DNA from: Gemmatimonadetes bacterium 13_2_20CM_2_65_7
GTDB lineage: Bacteria; Gemmatimonadota; Gemmatimonadetes; Gemmatimonadales; GWC2-71-9
NCBI GenBank assembly: GCA_001915025.1
Contig: MNDR01000096.1
Coordinates: 43,382-91,867 of the forward strand
Length of the DNA stretch: 48,486 nucleotides
Reading direction: 5' to 3'
Shown here: piece after piece, positions 5,760 through 46,731 of the stretch
Numbering within the stretch: position 1 is the stretch's first letter
Layout: the number at the start of each line of letters is the position of its first letter
The notes under the pieces: generated by a model
Seen by the model: only the letters and a program-made list of their open reading frames with translations
Databases searched by the model: none
Told to the model about the DNA's origin: nothing
Translations under genes and position numbers: made by a program

Positions 5760-7159
5760 CGCTCGCGGTCCCGCTGGTTCCGGCGCCCGATCCATTCGGC
5801 ACCTGCGTCCGCTTCAGCGGACTTCCGCACCTCGTCTTTCTCGATAGTTCGGCCCAGGGACCCCTGAGCCGTTTTTCGTTCTTGTGCGCCGATCCGGTCG
5901 CGGTCGTGCGGACGCCAGGGAATACTGATCCCCTCGGGGCGGCGCGCGCGCTTCTGGCACCGCACCGGCGCGAGCCGCTGCCTGGTCTCCCACCGTTCCA
6001 AGGTGGGATCGCGGGTTACCTCGGCTACGACTGGGGTGCGGAGCTCGAACGCGTCCGCCGTCCGCCGGCGGACCGGGGGGGGCTCCGGGGGCTCGGGGGG
6101 CTCTCGCACTCGATTCCAGACGTCGTGCTTGGCCTCTACGACTGGGTGATCGCCTGGGATCACTTGGAAGACAAGGCGTGGATTATCTCGACCGGCATCA
6201 GCGAAGCCTCGGAGGCGCGACTCGCGTGGGTACAGGAACGATTGGCTGCGTCTGGCCGCGCCGTCCCTGACGGTCCGAGACCGGCACCCGCGCCGCCCCA
6301 ATCCAACTTCACGCGCGCCGACTTCGAGTCACGCGTCAGCCGTATCCGCGATTACATCGCCGCCGGCGATGTCTATCAGGTCAATCTGGCGCAGCGATTT
6401 CAGGCCACCTTCACGGGGTCACCGCTGGCGCTGTACCGGCGGCTGCGGGCCCGCAATCCGGCGCCCTTCGGAGCGTATCTCGATTACGACGGCATGGTGA
6501 TCGCGAGCCTTTCGCCCGAGCGATTTCTGCGGATCGATGCGGGCTCCCGGGTGGTCGAAGCGCGTCCGATCAAGGGCACCCGGCCGCGCGGAGCAACGCC
6601 CGCGCAGGATGCCGCGCTCGCGCGCGAGCTCCAGACGAGCGCGAAGGATCTTGCCGAGAACGTCATGATCGTCGATCTGCTGCGGAACGATCTGGGGAAG
6701 GTCTGCCGGACCGGATCGGTGAGCGTGCCGCGGTTGCTCGCGCTCGAGTCGCACCCGACCGTGCACCATCTGGTTTCGACCGTCACCGGAATCCTGCGAG
6801 ACGACGCCGACGCATTCGATCTCGTGCGAGCCGCCTTTCCCGGCGGCTCGATCACCGGCGCGCCGAAGATCCGCGCGATGGAAATCATCGCGGAGCTGGA
6901 GCGTGCTCCGCGCGGCGTCTACTGTGGCGCGATCGGCTACGTCTCGGTGACCGGCGCGATGGACCTCAATATTCCGATTCGCACCATCGTGATTCGGGGA
7001 GGGGAGGCGACGTTCCACGCGGGCGCGGGCATCGTCTGGGATTCCGAGCCCGCGGCGGAGTATCAGGAGACGCTCGCGAAGGCGCGGACGATGATCGAGG
7101 CGCTTACTTCCCCACGCAGAATGCCGCGAACACGCGGTCCAGTACATCCTCAGGCGTAA
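5756..7159 (+). CDS. pabB: Aminodeoxychorismate synthase component I
   Basis: Chorismate-utilising enzyme that makes 4-amino-4-deoxychorismate for folate (p-aminobenzoate branch). The diagnostic motif is PIKGTRPRG with Lys273, the residue that separates PabB from anthranilate synthase (PIAGT). Other conserved blocks follow: the LAENVMIVDLLRNDLG motif, FPGGSITGAPK near the substrate pocket, and GAGIVWDSEP at the C-terminus. I place the start at the GTG at 5756, which overlaps the phhB stop as GTGA; an ATG at 5699 would overlap phhB by 61 bases. 467 residues. A G8-N4-G5-N3-G6 run at 6075-6100 encodes a Gly-rich linker. The 3' end overlaps convergent mnmE by 56 bases. No pabA or pabC is in view. 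Confidence 0.9.
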   Translation: MTLAVPLVPAPDPFGTCVRFSGLPHLVFLDSSAQGPLSRFSFLCADPVAVVRTPGNTDPLGAARALLAPHRREPLPGLPPFQGGIAGYLGYDWGAELERVRRPPADRGGLRGLGGLSHSIPDVVLGLYDWVIAWDHLEDKAWIISTGISEASEARLAWVQERLAASGRAVPDGPRPAPAPPQSNFTRADFESRVSRIRDYIAAGDVYQVNLAQRFQATFTGSPLALYRRLRARNPAPFGAYLDYDGMVIASLSPERFLRIDAGSRVVEARPIKGTRPRGATPAQDAALARELQTSAKDLAENVMIVDLLRNDLGKVCRTGSVSVPRLLALESHPTVHHLVSTVTGILRDDADAFDLVRAAFPGGSITGAPKIRAMEIIAELERAPRGVYCGAIGYVSVTGAMDLNIPIRTIVIRGGEATFHAGAGIVWDSEPAAEYQETLAKARTMIEALTSPRRMPRTRGPVHPQA

Positions 7160-8417
7160 TCGCGCCGATGAGGTCGTCGAGCGCCGCGACGGCCGCGCGC
7201 AGATGCGTGGCAGCCGCGGCCGCGTCGACGCCCGACTGCCGCGCGGTCCAGAATCCTTCCAGCTCGACCAGCGCGCGCTCCAACGCGGTGCGATGACGGG
7301 CCCGCGTCACAACGGGCTCCACGTCGCCTAACGCCAGCAGTGTTCCGAACGCCACTTCCGCGAGACGGCGGCGCAGCTCCGGGATGCCGGTGCCGGTCAC
7401 GACGGAGACTCCAACGCCGCCCGACAAATCGACCTTGGTACGAACCGTGACGACCGGCGCTTGAACCTGCGCCAGGAACGCGTCGCGCTCGGGATCGTCG
7501 CGTTCTTCACAGAAGAGCACCAGGTCGGCAGCCGCGAGATACTTGCGGCTCACTTCGATGCCGAGTCGTTCGATGCGCTCGTCGCTGTCGCGCAAGCCCG
7601 CGGTGTCGACGAGCCGAAACGGAAAGCCTTCGATCACGGCATGCGCTTCGATGGCATCGCGCGTCGTGCCGGGAATCTCCGTCACGATCGCCCGCTCGGT
7701 GCCGAGCAGCGCGTTGAAGAGCGACGACTTGCCGGCGTTCGGGCGGCCAGCGATCACGAGCAAGGCGCCTTCGCGTAGCCGTTCGCCTTCCGGCGCGGTC
7801 TTCAACAGATCAGCCACACGATCACGCACGACGCACCACGCACGACGCACGGTCGTTTCACTCACCGGTCCCTCGTCTTCCTCCGGGAAATCGATGTCGT
7901 ATGCGATCAGCGCTTCGAGCTCCAAGATCTCGGCGCGCAGCGCGGTCAGACGGTTCGACAAGCCGCGGTCGAGCTGCTGGAGCGCGCGGCGCCGCTGCAC
8001 GGGAGAACCGGCGTCGATCAGATCCGCCGTCGCTTCGGCTTGCAGCAGGTCCATCTTCCCGCTCAAGACGGCGCGGCGCGTGAACTCGCCGGGCGCCGCG
8101 GGGCGTGCTCCCGCGGCGACCAGTGCGGCGACGGCCGCAGCCGGCACGACGAGACCGCCGTGCGTCGAGATCTCGACGACATTCTCGCCCGTGTAGGAGT
8201 GCGGCTCGGGGAAGCAGGCCGCGAGCACGTCGTCAACCGGTTCCCGGGAGTCGGGATGGAGGAGTCGCGCGCGAAACACGGTGCGCGGCGGAGTGGGATG
8301 GAATGGCTCGAGGCAGCGGGCGGCGAGAGAAAAGGCTCGGGCACCCGAGAGGCGAATCAGCGCAAGCGCGCTGCGACCGGGCGGTGTCGCGAGCGCGACA
8401 ATCGGGTCGGAGAGCAG
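7104..8417 (-). CDS. mnmE: tRNA modification GTPase MnmE, likely CTG start
   Basis: GTPase that with MnmG makes 5-carboxymethylaminomethyl-uridine at tRNA wobble position 34. Domains: N-terminal formyl-THF-binding fold, helical domain, inserted G domain with P-loop GRPNAGKS (about residues 224-231), G2 GTTRD, G3 DTAGLR, TKVD in place of the usual NKxD, and the C-terminal catalytic CVGK. The conserved N-terminus (SDPIVALATPPGRSALALIRLSG) is encoded upstream of the first GTG (8279), and the only codon ahead of it is CTG at 8415-8417, directly after the yidC TAG in the same frame. With CTG the protein has 437 residues, a normal length. A 14-bp tandem repeat lies at 7823-7850. Identification is certain; the start codon is inferred. 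Confidence 0.93.
   Translation of the reverse strand: MLSDPIVALATPPGRSALALIRLSGARAFSLAARCLEPFHPTPPRTVFRARLLHPDSREPVDDVLAACFPEPHSYTGENVVEISTHGGLVVPAAAVAALVAAGARPAAPGEFTRRAVLSGKMDLLQAEATADLIDAGSPVQRRRALQQLDRGLSNRLTALRAEILELEALIAYDIDFPEEDEGPVSETTVRRAWCVVRDRVADLLKTAPEGERLREGALLVIAGRPNAGKSSLFNALLGTERAIVTEIPGTTRDAIEAHAVIEGFPFRLVDTAGLRDSDERIERLGIEVSRKYLAAADLVLFCEERDDPERDAFLAQVQAPVVTVRTKVDLSGGVGVSVVTGTGIPELRRRLAEVAFGTLLALGDVEPVVTRARHRTALERALVELEGFWTARQSGVDAAAAATHLRAAVAALDDLIGAITPEDVLDRVFAAFCVGK
7823..7850 (-). repeat. 14-bp tandem repeat inside mnmE
   Basis: CACGCACGACGCAC occurs twice in tandem on the plus strand (7823-7836, 7837-7850), encoding part of VRRAWCVVRD in the helical domain of MnmE. The unit is not a multiple of 3. 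Confidence 0.8.
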
Positions 8418-10121
8418 CTACGTCTTGACCGGAGTCGGCGCGCGTGCTCCACCACCGGCCACCGGAGCCTCTCGCAGGCGACGCTTCGCGATCAGGTACT
8501 GCTGCGGAATGCTGAACAGGTTTTGCGAGGCGTAGTACAGATTCAGCCCCGACGCAAAGTTCAGGAACAGCACGGTCATGAAGACCGGCATGAAGTACAA
8601 CATCATCTTGGACTGCGGATTCGGCGGGACGCCGATCTGTCCGATCTTCGAGAGCGCGAACATCGACAGCCCCATCATCACGGGGATGATACGAAAGGGA
8701 TCGGCCCGCGAGAGATCCGGAAGCCACAGGAACGGCACGCCCCGAAATGCGATCGTGTTGGCGAATACGAAGAAGAGCGCCAGCAGCACCGGCATCGGCA
8801 GCAGCATCGGGAGACAACCGCCGAATGGATTCACCTTGTTCTCTTTGTAAATGCGCATCATCTCGCGCTGCAGCCGCTCGGGATCGTTCTTGTAGCGGTC
8901 CTGCGTCTCCTTGAGCAACGGGGCGACCGCCTGCATACGGATGCCGGACTCCATCGCCTTCTGGTTCAATGGCCACAACAGCAGACGCACGATCACGCCG
9001 AACAGAATGAGCACCCACCCGTAAGCGAGGCTCAGGCGTTCATGCATCCACAGCAGGATGTTGACGACGAATACCGAGACCGGTTGAATGATCGGGCGGA
9101 AAATGCCGCCGTAGGGGTTGGCATCGTCGAGATCGTGGCCGAGCCGGGATAGCTGGCGATAGTCGAGGGGACCCGCGTATACCTGGTAGCGGAAACCGCC
9201 CGCCGGCGCGACGGGCATCGTGATCGAGACGGACGCGCGTGACGCAGCGCGCCCGCTGCGCGGTCCACCGACGGCGATCGCGCCACCGAACGTCTGCTGA
9301 CCCTCTTCGAGCGCGAGTGCCGCCGTGAAAAAATACTTGGACTTCACGCCAACCCATTCGAAGGGCCCGTCGAGCAAGACACGCTGGTCGGGGCGCAGCT
9401 TGGAGAAATCGGTGCGCTCGGCTTTCGATGCTTTCGTCACGACGGCATAGTGGCGATAATCGTCGAGCGAATCTTTTTCGGCGGACCGCAGACCGTTCGA
9501 CAGCCCAAGGAGCAACACGGCGCCGCCGCTGCTCAGCCCGGTGACGTTGCCACGCACCTCGAAACGGTACTGATCGGGCGCAAATCGATACTCGAGCGTC
9601 ACACGCGATCCGCCGCGCTCGGCCTCGAGATGGAGCGACTGCGCTCCCTGCCCCGCGGACACCACGAGTCCGGGCGCGTCGGGACTGAGTTGGAAATCCC
9701 AGTCGTCGAGCGACACGGTATCGCCGCTGGGCACGATGAGGCGATGACGCAGAAAGGCATCGCCGCTGGGGACGAGCTGCACGGGGCGCGCCGAATCACC
9801 AGAGGCAAATGATTGATAATTCAGTAGTTCGGCCGACACGAGCCGGCCGCCGCGGGTCGAGAATCCGAGACGATACAGCGGCGAGGTGACCCAGACGATC
9901 CGGCCGGTGTCGAGCGGTTGGGCGGTTCGGCGGTTCGGCGGTTGGCCGGTCGACGGCGTCGGCAAGATCGCATGCGCGGTCGAATCGCGCCGGGCTGTAC
10001 TGTCCGCCAAACCGCCCAACCGCCCAACCGCCGGTTTCTTCGGCGGCCAGATGAGCGACGGCGCGATCGCCACGATGATCATCAGCGCGATCGCGAGCAG
10101 GATTCTGCGTTCCGTACTCAC
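8418..10121 (-). CDS. yidC: Membrane protein insertase YidC
   Basis: Inner-membrane insertase (Oxa1/YidC) that folds and inserts membrane proteins, alone or with Sec. 567 residues: TM1 at about 7-25, an Ala/Pro/Arg-rich linker, a large periplasmic beta domain (to about residue 330), then the conserved C-terminal hydrophobic core (segments around SLAYGWVLILFGVIVRLLLW, LLPMPVLLALFFVFANTIAF and YFMPVFMTVLFLNFASGLNL). The linker after TM1 (about residues 28-75) is partly encoded by inverted octamer arrays at 9913-10033 and is unlikely to be structured. The GTG start abuts the yidD stop (TAA then GTG) with no gap, and its own TAG abuts the CTG of mnmE. Confidence 0.95.
   Translation of the reverse strand: MSTERRILLAIALMIIVAIAPSLIWPPKKPAVGRLGGLADSTARRDSTAHAILPTPSTGQPPNRRTAQPLDTGRIVWVTSPLYRLGFSTRGGRLVSAELLNYQSFASGDSARPVQLVPSGDAFLRHRLIVPSGDTVSLDDWDFQLSPDAPGLVVSAGQGAQSLHLEAERGGSRVTLEYRFAPDQYRFEVRGNVTGLSSGGAVLLLGLSNGLRSAEKDSLDDYRHYAVVTKASKAERTDFSKLRPDQRVLLDGPFEWVGVKSKYFFTAALALEEGQQTFGGAIAVGGPRSGRAASRASVSITMPVAPAGGFRYQVYAGPLDYRQLSRLGHDLDDANPYGGIFRPIIQPVSVFVVNILLWMHERLSLAYGWVLILFGVIVRLLLWPLNQKAMESGIRMQAVAPLLKETQDRYKNDPERLQREMMRIYKENKVNPFGGCLPMLLPMPVLLALFFVFANTIAFRGVPFLWLPDLSRADPFRIIPVMMGLSMFALSKIGQIGVPPNPQSKMMLYFMPVFMTVLFLNFASGLNLYYASQNLFSIPQQYLIAKRRLREAPVAGGGARAPTPVKT
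9913..10033. repeat. Inverted octamer-repeat arrays inside yidC
   Basis: Arm one (9913-9949) contains consecutive units GGCGGTTC / GGCGGTTC / GGCGGTTG. Arm two (10004-10033) carries the complement, CCGCCAAACCGCCCAACC and on. The arms are separated by 54 bases and lie in frame in the linker after TM1 of YidC. The arms encode QPPNRRTAQPLD and AVGRLGGLADS; the peptide TAQPL also appears in the element at 16640-16713. Confidence 0.75.
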
Positions 10122-42857: not shown

Positions 42858-43703
42858 ATGGTAGAGCGTCGTCTCACGGGAATGATTGCCGCCGCCGCGG
42901 TGTTGATCGTCCTCTTCATTTTCTGGGATGTGTTCCGGCCCGTGGCTCGCGCCGTCGACAGCTCCGCGCCGGCGCCTACGACGCTGGCAGTCGACTCGAT
43001 TGCTCGACCGATCGCGCCGCCCACACCGCCGCCTGCTGCGCCACAGCCGGTCGCCCCGGCGACGACGGCCTCGCAGGGCACCGCGGGCCCGACCGTTCCG
43101 GCGGGGCGTCAACCGACGTACTTCGATCTGCTCGCCCGGTCGGAAACGCGACGCCGCATTCGCTTGACCGGGACGAGTACGTATCTGGGCGAAATGCTGG
43201 CGGCGAGCGATGACTCGATGCTGCGCCGTTGGGACAACAGACAGCAGTCACCGGTCCGCGTGTGGTTTGCCTCTACGAACGCCGCGAACTTCAAGCCCGC
43301 TTTCCTCGAGCAGATCAGGGCCGCGTTCGGCCAATGGGCGAATGCGGGTGTCCCCATCCGTTTCGATTTCGTCACGGACTCGACGCAGGCCGAGGTCACG
43401 GTGAAGTGGCGCATTCAATTCGAGATCGAGCGCACGGGCCAGACCGATGTGACGTGGGACGACCAGGGCCACATTCAATCCGCCGTCGTGACCCTCGCGA
43501 CATTCGATCCCAAGGGCCGGCCCATGGAGCCGGACGATATCCGCGTCGTCGCGATGCACGAAGTCGGCCACGTGCTCGGCCTCGATCATTCGAAGGATTC
43601 GACCGACATCATGTTCCCGACCGCCAAAGTGCGAGAGCTGTCGGACCGTGACGTCCGCACCGTCCGTCTTCTGTATGAGCTCACGCCGGGGAGCGTTCGG
43701 TGA
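42858..43703 (+). CDS. Membrane-anchored matrixin-like metalloprotease
   Basis: A 281-residue protein with one N-terminal TM segment (MIAAAAVLIVLFIFWDVF, about 9-26), a Pro/Ala-rich stalk (about 35-85), and a protease domain ending in the metzincin zinc site HEVGHVLGLDH (234-244) and a Met-turn DIMFPT. These are the marks of matrixins. The last base pairs overlap the radical SAM gene start (GTGA). The substrate is unknown; the stalk suggests it acts in the periplasm or at the surface. Confidence 0.9.
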   Translation: MVERRLTGMIAAAAVLIVLFIFWDVFRPVARAVDSSAPAPTTLAVDSIARPIAPPTPPPAAPQPVAPATTASQGTAGPTVPAGRQPTYFDLLARSETRRRIRLTGTSTYLGEMLAASDDSMLRRWDNRQQSPVRVWFASTNAANFKPAFLEQIRAAFGQWANAGVPIRFDFVTDSTQAEVTVKWRIQFEIERTGQTDVTWDDQGHIQSAVVTLATFDPKGRPMEPDDIRVVAMHEVGHVLGLDHSKDSTDIMFPTAKVRELSDRDVRTVRLLYELTPGSVR

Positions 43704-44800
43704 AACCGCGCAGCATCACGTCGTTTCTCGATCATGAGGTTCCCCCTCTCGATGTGCCATTGGCGCAGGCGCTGGATGCGCGTGTGCGCGAAGCGGAGCT
43801 CGTCGAACGACTGGACGGGGGAGCGATTCGCTGCTTTGCCTGCGGTCACCGCTGTCTCGTCAAGCCGGGCCGCCGCGGGATCTGCAAGGTGCGATTCAAT
43901 AAGGAAGGAACGCTGTACGCGCCGGCGGGCTACGTCGCGGCCTTGCAGTGCGATCCCACCGAGAAAAAACCCTTCTTCCATTGCCTGCCCGGCAGCGACA
44001 CGCTCACGTTCGGCATGCTGGGCTGCGACTTCCACTGTGGGTATTGCCAGAACTGGCTGACCTCGCAGGCGCTGCGTGACGAAACCGCCGGCGTCATGCC
44101 CCGGGACGTCACTCCCGACGAGCTCGTGGGCCTCGCGGTGCGCCAGGGCGCACGTATGGTGGGGTCCTCGTACAATGAGCCGCTGATCACGGCCGAGTGG
44201 GCCGTCGATGTGTTCAAAGCCGCTCGACCTGCCGGTCTGAAGACGGCGTTCATCTCCAACGGCAACGCCACGCCCGAGGTCCTCGATTACATCCGCCGCT
44301 GGACCGATTGCTACAAGATCGATCTCAAGGCGATGGACGACAAACGCTACCGGGAGCTGGGTGGCGTCTTGGCGCACGTCCTCGATGCGATCCGCATGGT
44401 GCATGAGCGTGGCTTCTGGCTGGAGGTCGTCACGTTGATCGTGCCCGGATTCAACGATGACGAGTCACAACTCACGCGCGCGGCCGAGGTGATCGCCGCG
44501 GTTTCGCCGGAGATTCCCTGGCACGTGACGGCGTTTCACAAGGACTACAAGATGACCGATGCGGCGAACACGCCGGCGGCGACGCTGGTCCATGCGTGTG
44601 AAATCGGGGCGCGCGCCGGGCTCAAGTTCGTGTATGCAGGCAATCTCCCCGGCCGTGTGGGACGCTGGGAGAACACCTACTGCCCTGATTGCGGCGATCT
44701 GGTGATCGAACGCTATGGTTACGTCATCAAGCAACAGCGCGTCGGAAGCGACGGCCGTTGTCCCTCTTGCAGCCGGCGGATTCCAGGCATTTGGTCGTAA
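43700..44800 (+). CDS. AmmeMemoRadiSam-type radical SAM enzyme
   Basis: A 366-residue radical SAM protein: the CxxxCxxC cluster in GCDFHCGYC (Cys109, Cys113, Cys116), the SAM-binding region GSSYNEPLI, and extra cysteine pairs at the N-terminus (CFACGHRCLVKPGRRGIC) and C-terminus (CPDCGDLVIERYGY and RCPSCSRRIP). This matches the AmmeMemoRadiSam group, often found with AMMECR1 and Memo homologues, neither of which is in view. GTG start overlaps the protease stop. Reaction unknown. Confidence 0.88.
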   Translation: MKPRSITSFLDHEVPPLDVPLAQALDARVREAELVERLDGGAIRCFACGHRCLVKPGRRGICKVRFNKEGTLYAPAGYVAALQCDPTEKKPFFHCLPGSDTLTFGMLGCDFHCGYCQNWLTSQALRDETAGVMPRDVTPDELVGLAVRQGARMVGSSYNEPLITAEWAVDVFKAARPAGLKTAFISNGNATPEVLDYIRRWTDCYKIDLKAMDDKRYRELGGVLAHVLDAIRMVHERGFWLEVVTLIVPGFNDDESQLTRAAEVIAAVSPEIPWHVTAFHKDYKMTDAANTPAATLVHACEIGARAGLKFVYAGNLPGRVGRWENTYCPDCGDLVIERYGYVIKQQRVGSDGRCPSCSRRIPGIWS

Positions 44801-46039
44801 CGGTCTTATTGCTTCTGCAGACTTCCGTAACCCCGGGGCAGCGCTCCGGGATCAACACACCCAAGCACAGCGCGTTCGATAGTCAGACATTCGATTCGCT
44901 CGTCATGCGTGGCATCCGGGAAGGGGTGTACCCCGGCGCCGCACTCGTGATCGGCCGACACGATACGGTCCTATTCGCGAAGGCATACGGTCATCTCAGG
45001 TGGGGGTCGAAGAGTCCGGCGGTGAGCATCAACGATACGTTCTGGGATCTCGCATCGCTCACGAAAGTTGTTGCGACTACGCCGTCCCTCATGCTCCTCG
45101 TCGAGCGCGGCAACGTCGAACTGGATACGCCCGTCGTTCGCTACATCGCGGAATTCAACGGTCCTGGCACGGCTGCCATTACGGTGCGCCACCTCATGAC
45201 GCACACCTCGGGGCTCCGCGGGACGCTGCCGCTGCGCGACGCGCCCGACAGTGCGACCGCGCTCCGGATGGTTTTCACGACCACGCCGGTTGTCGCCCCC
45301 GGATTGCGCATGGTGTATTCCGATCTCAACGCGATTCTCCTGGGCGAGATCGTGCACCGTGTGAGTGGACAACCGCTCGACGTATTCGTCACGCGCGAGG
45401 TATACGCGCCCCTCGGTCTGGATCAGCAGATGATGTTTCGGCCGCCCAAACGACTCGAGCCGCGCATTGCGCCGACGGGGTTATGGCACGGCCATCCGGT
45501 GGCGGGCATAGTGAACGATCCCAGCGCGGCGCGGCTCGGTGGCGTGGCCGGGCATGCGGGCCTCTTCGCCACTGCAAGCGCGCTCGGCCGGTACGCGCAA
45601 TTCATGCTGGGCGAGGGCAGCGTGCCCGGTGGTCCGCGAATATTGAAGAGCGAAACCGTGCATCAATTCACGCAGGTGGCGGTGACCGCGCGACGCGGCG
45701 CTAGCGCACGTACACTGGGATGGGAAGCGTTGCCGACAGGCGAGGAGGTCTCCAGCGCCGGCACGTTGACGCGGCGCTAGCGCACGTACACTGGGATGGG
45801 AAGCGTTGCCGACAGGCGAGGAGGTCTCCAGCGCCGGCACGTTGCTCGGTCCGCGGAGCTACGGGCATAGCGGCTGGACAGGAACGTCGCTATGGATCGA
45901 TCCCGACCGCGACCTGTTCATTCTGCTGCTCACGAATCGCGCGTTTGATCCGCGCACCCGCCGCTCGTTCACGAAACTGCACGAGATCCGCGGCCGGGTC
46001 GCCGATGCCGCGGCGCGCGCTGCCGATGCTTCCCATTGA
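44791..46039 (+). pseudogene. Serine hydrolase (beta-lactamase class C type), frameshifted
   Basis: Exported serine hydrolase of the beta-lactamase/PBP4 type. TTG 44791 with signal peptide LVVTVLLLLQTSVTPGQ; SxxK in DLASLTKV; YSDLN as the second motif; HSG in YGHSGWTGT. A 76-bp tandem duplication (45693-45768 and 45769-45844) shifts the frame: the first frame ends at TAG 45778-45780 after GTLTRR, and the HSG motif lies beyond it. Removing one copy restores one frame of 390 residues ending at 46039, whose TGA overlaps the TTG of the next gene. The gene is therefore intact apart from the duplication; it may be off, or the duplication may be a switch or an assembly error. Confidence 0.88.
45693..45844 (+). 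repeat. Exact 76-bp tandem duplication
   Basis: Unit 45693-45768 is repeated without change at 45769-45844. The unit is not a multiple of 3, so it breaks the serine hydrolase frame. Both copies start ACGCGGCGCTAGCGC and end CCGGCACGTTG. One extra base (G at 45692 and 45768) also matches. Confidence 0.97.
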
Positions 46040-46398
46040 AAGAATCACCGACGTTGATCTACGACGGCGAATGTGGGCTGTGCCAGCAAGCCGTCGAGAT
46101 TCTGCGCCGCTGGGACCGGGAACACGTGCTTCGGCTCGTTCCGTTTCAGGACGACGCCGCGGTCGCGAGCTTCGGGATCGGACTCCCCGCTCTGGCCGCG
46201 GCGATGCACCTCGTTCTGCCTGACGGCAGACTGTACGCCGGCGCGGATGCAGTGCCAGAGCTGTTGCGGCTGCTGCCACGCCGGCGCTGGTTCGCTCCAT
46301 TGTTTCGCATCCCGGGCGTATTACCGCTCGCCCGGTGGATCTACGCCCGGATCGCCGCGCGGCGGCGTTGTCTGGTGCGCGGGATGCCGAGTCGCTAG
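46036..46398 (+). CDS. Thiol-disulfide oxidoreductase-like DCC protein (DUF393)
   Basis: A 120-residue DUF393 protein. It begins PTLIYDGECGLCQQAVEIL with the DGxCxxC motif that names the family, and ends with an RIPGVLPLARWIYARIAARR-type block typical of the group. Redox activity is presumed from the CxxC, not shown. The TTG start overlaps the serine hydrolase stop (TTGA), which argues that the hydrolase frame was intact in the recent past. Confidence 0.88.
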   Translation: MKESPTLIYDGECGLCQQAVEILRRWDREHVLRLVPFQDDAAVASFGIGLPALAAAMHLVLPDGRLYAGADAVPELLRLLPRRRWFAPLFRIPGVLPLARWIYARIAARRRCLVRGMPSR

Positions 46399-46422: not shown

Positions 46423-46731
46423 GTGACCACTGCCGTATTGAACGCCGACGCGATCCGTCAGGCACTGCGCCAGGTAAAAGATCCGGAGCTCGACATGAAC
46501 ATCGTCGATCTCGGGCTCGTGTACGACATCGAGGTCGATGACGGCCTGGTCCGCATCAACATGACGCTGACATCACCCGGATGCCCCGCGGGTCCGATGA
46601 TCACGAACGACATCTACAAAGTCGTGCGCGCGATCGAAGGGGTGAAAGACGTGGACATCGACATCGTGTGGGAGCCGTACTGGACTCCGGACCGCATCGA
46701 TCCGAAAATCCGCGCGATGATGGGGTTCTAG
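46423..46731 (+). CDS. Metal-sulfur cluster assembly factor (MIP18/SufT-like)
   Basis: A 102-residue protein of the MIP18 (DUF59) family. Motifs: DPELDMNIVDLGLVYDIEVD and TLTSPGCPAG with the family cysteine. Members such as SufT and PaaD help in iron-sulfur cluster assembly or maturation. GTG start, TAG stop overlapping the convergent rnd stop by 4 bases. No other suf or isc gene is in view. Confidence 0.9.
   Translation: MTTAVLNADAIRQALRQVKDPELDMNIVDLGLVYDIEVDDGLVRINMTLTSPGCPAGPMITNDIYKVVRAIEGVKDVDIDIVWEPYWTPDRIDPKIRAMMGF

Follow-up and report, generated by a model that had tools for sequence, protein, structure and literature searches.

We analysed a window of 48.5 kb (positions 43382-91867 of contig C59) from a metagenome-assembled genome of a Gemmatimonadetes bacterium, in which the gene of a serine hydrolase of the S12/Beta-lactamase fold is distributed over two reading frames (Table 1). 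It lies between the genes of a radical SAM protein and of a DCC1-like thiol-disulfide oxidoreductase. A Matrixin-type (Peptidase_M10) metalloprotease is encoded just 5' of the radical SAM gene (window positions 42858-43703), and 3' of the DCC1-like gene lies a gene for an FeS_assembly_P (PF01883) protein (46423-46731). This is followed by a convergent gene for an RNase D-like 3'-5' exonuclease/HRDC protein, the end of which overlaps the FeS_assembly_P gene.

Both pieces of the hydrolase score above the gathering threshold of PF00144 (27 bits), the 5' piece with 169 bits and the 3' piece with 35.9 bits, which upholds the serine hydrolase reading of a first-pass annotation made from the sequence alone. 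All three motifs of the S12 set (SxxK, YxN and HSG/HTG) are present. SLTK and YSDLN are carried by the 5' piece, which opens with TTG and reaches its stop inside the second copy of an exact 76-bp doubling; the third catalytic motif, HSG, is located 3' of the doubling in the other frame, past the frame break, and had rightly been described as cut off. By coordinates, a single copy would result in a hydrolase of 390 residues, and the TGA stop of the 3' frame (46037-46039) overlaps the TTG start of the DCC1-like gene at 46036, both in agreement with that annotation.

The hydrolase shares the Beta-lactamase domain and the motifs SxxK, YxN and HSG/HTG with other S12/PF00144 hydrolases, i.e. PBP4B-like enzymes and EstB-type esterases. 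Its best NCBIfam profile is PBP4B (NF002968, an equivalog). We rejected an identity as PBP4B, the window piece reaching 104 bits and the intact relative L006 reaching 162 bits against a cut-off of 385 bits, so that unlike PBP4B itself the window hydrolase stays far under the equivalog cut-off. Most likely the cell has this gene in an intact form, encoding a serine hydrolase of family S12 to which the PBP4B profile assigns neither a substrate nor an exact function.

Table 1. Features at the interrupted hydrolase locus (window coordinates).
Feature	Position	Strand	Evidence
Radical SAM protein, preceding gene, same neighbour in congeners	43700..44800	+	PF04055; order in L004-L006
5' piece, S12/Beta-lactamase-fold serine hydrolase, 329 aa	44791..45780	+	PF00144 E=1.8e-49; congener alignment
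Exact doubling, first 76-bp copy	45692..45767		exact repeat
Second copy, 76 bp with 1 bp of continued match	45768..45844		exact repeat
3' piece, same hydrolase, post-doubling frame, HSG (HTG in relatives)	45776..46039	+	PF00144 E=6.4e-9, profile 269-316
DCC1-like thiol-disulfide oxidoreductase, next gene	46036..46398	+	PF04134 E=4.7e-22

An exact 76-bp doubling in the deposited sequence

The deposited letters hold two identical, abutting 76-bp copies, the second proper ending at 45843; identity at a period of 76 extends over 45692-45844 and the maximal exact match comprises 77 bp. The first-pass annotation had placed this exact tandem duplication at 45693-45844; the doubling itself is confirmed, its start lying one base earlier. 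A 77-bp match arising by chance is out of the question, and a scan of periods 4-599 revealed no other tandem repeat in the window whose exact match reaches 18 bp. The homology at the junction is 1 bp. A 10-bp palindrome, GCGCTAGCGC, is found near the start of each copy, and nothing was seen to show that this palindrome acts. Exact identity alone does not separate a recent duplication, a switch and an artefact from one another; other doublings in the assembly do.

No second copy in the relatives examined, and an intact, constrained gene

A DNA search of 60 relatives returned eight of nine congeners with the hydrolase gene. Where a congener match spans the site, as for the closest congeners, it splits at the doubling into two parts that overlap in the target, which shows that those relatives have one copy. 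Searching the 76-bp unit directly in the loci of 11 relatives gave at most one copy each, the more divergent relatives falling under the score limit. All 11 homologues that were translated have the hydrolase as an unbroken frame, and the protein alignment with the congeners is gapless across the doubling site. The order of radical SAM gene and hydrolase gene is kept in L004-L006, with a DCC1-like gene next in L005.

Pairwise Nei-Gojobori comparisons of the window with same-genus relatives resulted in a dN/dS of about 0.1 after the doubling (dN about 0.10-0.13, with dS mostly near or above 1), the post-doubling part being constrained at least as much as the part preceding it. Relaxed selection after the break, looked for by dN/dS against the same-genus relatives, left no sign. 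The hydrolase has thus been under selection until now, meaning that the break must be of very recent date if it is present in the cell at all.

Further exact doublings in the same genome

The source is a fragmented metagenome-assembled genome (101 contigs, 2.68 Mb, 82% complete). We sought exact tandem doublings in 1.69 Mb of it, comprising the window and the starts of 100 contigs (at most 20 kb each). Short repeats of low complexity were left out of the count, as was a 33/34-bp doubling on contig C82 that is ambiguous. Four clean doublings were found (unit/match in bp): the window doubling (76/77) and those on C9 (260/260), C29 (51/51) and C64 (32/32).

Two of these start at the exact first base of a contig, namely bases 1-102 of C29 (L051; 51-bp unit) and bases 1-64 of C64 (L095; 32-bp unit), a place at which only assembly could put them. 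Relatives align to C29 only from base 52 and to C64 only from base 32-33, i.e. from the second copy onward, and the relatives' sequence upstream of the match is unrelated to the doubled unit. A contig broken within a real tandem array would start at a random phase, so that two starts with exactly two units are a signature of assembly; doublings from the exact first base of contigs point to assembly or curation and not to biology.

The doubling on C9 (L031; 3959-4478) frameshifts a kdsD/kpsF-type gene, which is the only gene of the genome above the kpsF cut-off and which adjoins a KdsA-like gene and pyrG, both named from their sequences. The 260-bp unit is present in one copy in the five congeners searched. 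An LPS-bearing cell is not expected to tolerate a frameshift in kdsD, the essentiality of the gene in the present organism being an assumption. The C9 doubling probably goes back to an assembly error of the same type. Both interrupted genes show an exact and blunt doubling, with a match of 77 bp at period 76 in the hydrolase gene and of 260 bp at period 260 with a junction homology of 0 bp on C9.

No doubling of at least 30 bp was seen in 231 kb of congener bins, which are partly masked, or in 400 kb of single-contig genomes, samples that are too small to differ significantly.

Assembly background and published precedent

The named congeners are short-read Gemmatimonadetes bins from metagenomes, one of them being titled 'AG30 14_0929_12_40cm_scaffold_50_curated'. 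This naming fits one grassland-soil project, registered as BioProject PRJNA449266, to which the source bin would belong judging by its congeners and not by its own record. In that project, reads trimmed to at most 200 bp were assembled with IDBA-UD, and an automated step then corrected errors of scaffolding (PMC6784897). The correction method collects the reads at places of zero coverage and reassembles them locally with Velvet, upon which the scaffold is repaired, masked or broken (PMC5079060). IDBA-UD scaffold joins are described to leave duplicate sequence where overlapping flanks are not collapsed, and local repeats to appear with a wrong copy number (PMC7111523). The window resembles these joins in that uncollapsed overlapping flanks would result in duplicated sequence; it differs in that Ns separate the duplicates in the published case, whereas the window copies abut without Ns, perhaps as a result of the automated local reassembly.

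In Salmonella, experimentally confirmed spontaneous duplications show junction homologies from about 11 bp upward, artificial chimeras homologies near 0 (PMC3411829); that study, on one species, used long homology to tell duplications from chimeras and selected for long homology. Read against it, the junction homologies of 1 bp and 0 bp at the hydrolase and C9 doublings would represent blunt joins, giving moderate support to an artefact.

Two causes were rejected. One was a constant k-mer overlap, considered because 77 is a common maximum k; the project of the congeners used k up to 200, and the lengths of the doublings (32, 51, 76 and 260 bp) differ, so no single k-mer explains all of them. 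The other was a parent error that leaves N gaps with duplicated flanks; no gap in 1.33 Mb of this genome showed such flanks.

Origin of the doubling

The first-pass annotation had left three options side by side: a very recent duplication, an on/off state reversible by repeat loss, and an assembly artefact. The doublings starting at base 1 of C29 and C64 and the broken kdsD gene of C9 favour the last of these, and the reversible state finds no support. We regard it as very likely that the 76-bp doubling is an artefact of short-read metagenome assembly or of automated scaffold curation, and infer the pipeline step responsible for the error. According to this model, two overlapping pieces of one locus would have been joined end to end and the shared 76-77 bp left uncollapsed, the cell most likely carrying one copy and an intact hydrolase within a cluster of radical SAM, S12 hydrolase, DCC1 and FeS_assembly_P genes. 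Points against an artefact are the unequal lengths of the doublings, the N gaps lacking duplicated flanks, the small control samples free of such doublings, the assignment to the project by congeners, and the purpose of the curation step, which is to strip unsupported sequence. By our reasoning, though, zero coverage does not have to result from a tandem doubling: one-copy reads would align without mismatch as far as the false junction from either side, which could let the doubling pass a zero-coverage filter.

A real tandem duplication that arose very recently among the sampled cells, representing an ordinary loss of function of the hydrolase that might, like any tandem duplication, revert by slippage or recombination, appears unlikely to us. 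Tandem duplications do arise in bacteria, the exactness of the copies and the otherwise undecayed gene fit an event too young for divergence, and the palindrome near the start of each copy might be counted in its favour. Against this stand the junction homology of 1 bp, which is less than in verified spontaneous duplications (PMC3411829), and the absence of two copies from all relatives compared; moreover, the same assembly contains doublings at contig starts that cannot be biological and one that would break its only kdsD gene above the cut-off.

We consider it highly improbable that gain and loss of a 76-bp copy toggles the S12 hydrolase in a phase-variable manner and segregates in the soil population, even though 76 cannot be divided by 3, which places one copy in frame and two out of frame, and loss of one copy is possible in principle. 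Neither two copies nor a scar were present at the site in the congeners and family members compared, among which the unit thus shows a single copy-number state; no short-repeat hotspot was found at the junction; and the gene belongs to a conserved cluster of cytosolic/enzymatic genes and is not placed among surface variants. A short tandem duplication phase variant is known in pheN of Pseudomonas tolaasii. Variants of the pheN type resemble the present case in that a gene is inactivated by a direct duplication, which the loss of one copy might in principle undo; they differ in that the window assembly holds doublings that cannot be biological and that the window site is known in one state only. 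Equally improbable is a decayed pseudogene or a genuinely shorter, two-part protein, for which the frame open to 329 aa and the separately open C-terminal part could be cited: purifying selection is kept in both pieces, the first one lacks the HSG/HTG motif, the second one would comprise no more of the domain than its C-terminal end, and relatives have one protein.

The observed doubling is therefore probably an artefact and not a genuine biological feature. This calls for caution, as false pseudogenes, in the present case of the hydrolase and of KdsD, arise from doublings of this exact and blunt type in curated metagenome bins. A simple scan for tandem doublings that includes the contig starts can flag such errors.

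Two further repeats were noted in the genome. On C82 (L113; 12607-12673) a 33-bp unit occurs twice, the match extending over 34 bp, in a repetitive G-rich region that holds no convincing gene; it may represent either a real minisatellite or a further doubling. C29 (L051) contains, at 7068-8658, an imperfect repeat whose units are 1040 bp apart and share several long exact stretches, which is probably a real gene duplication.
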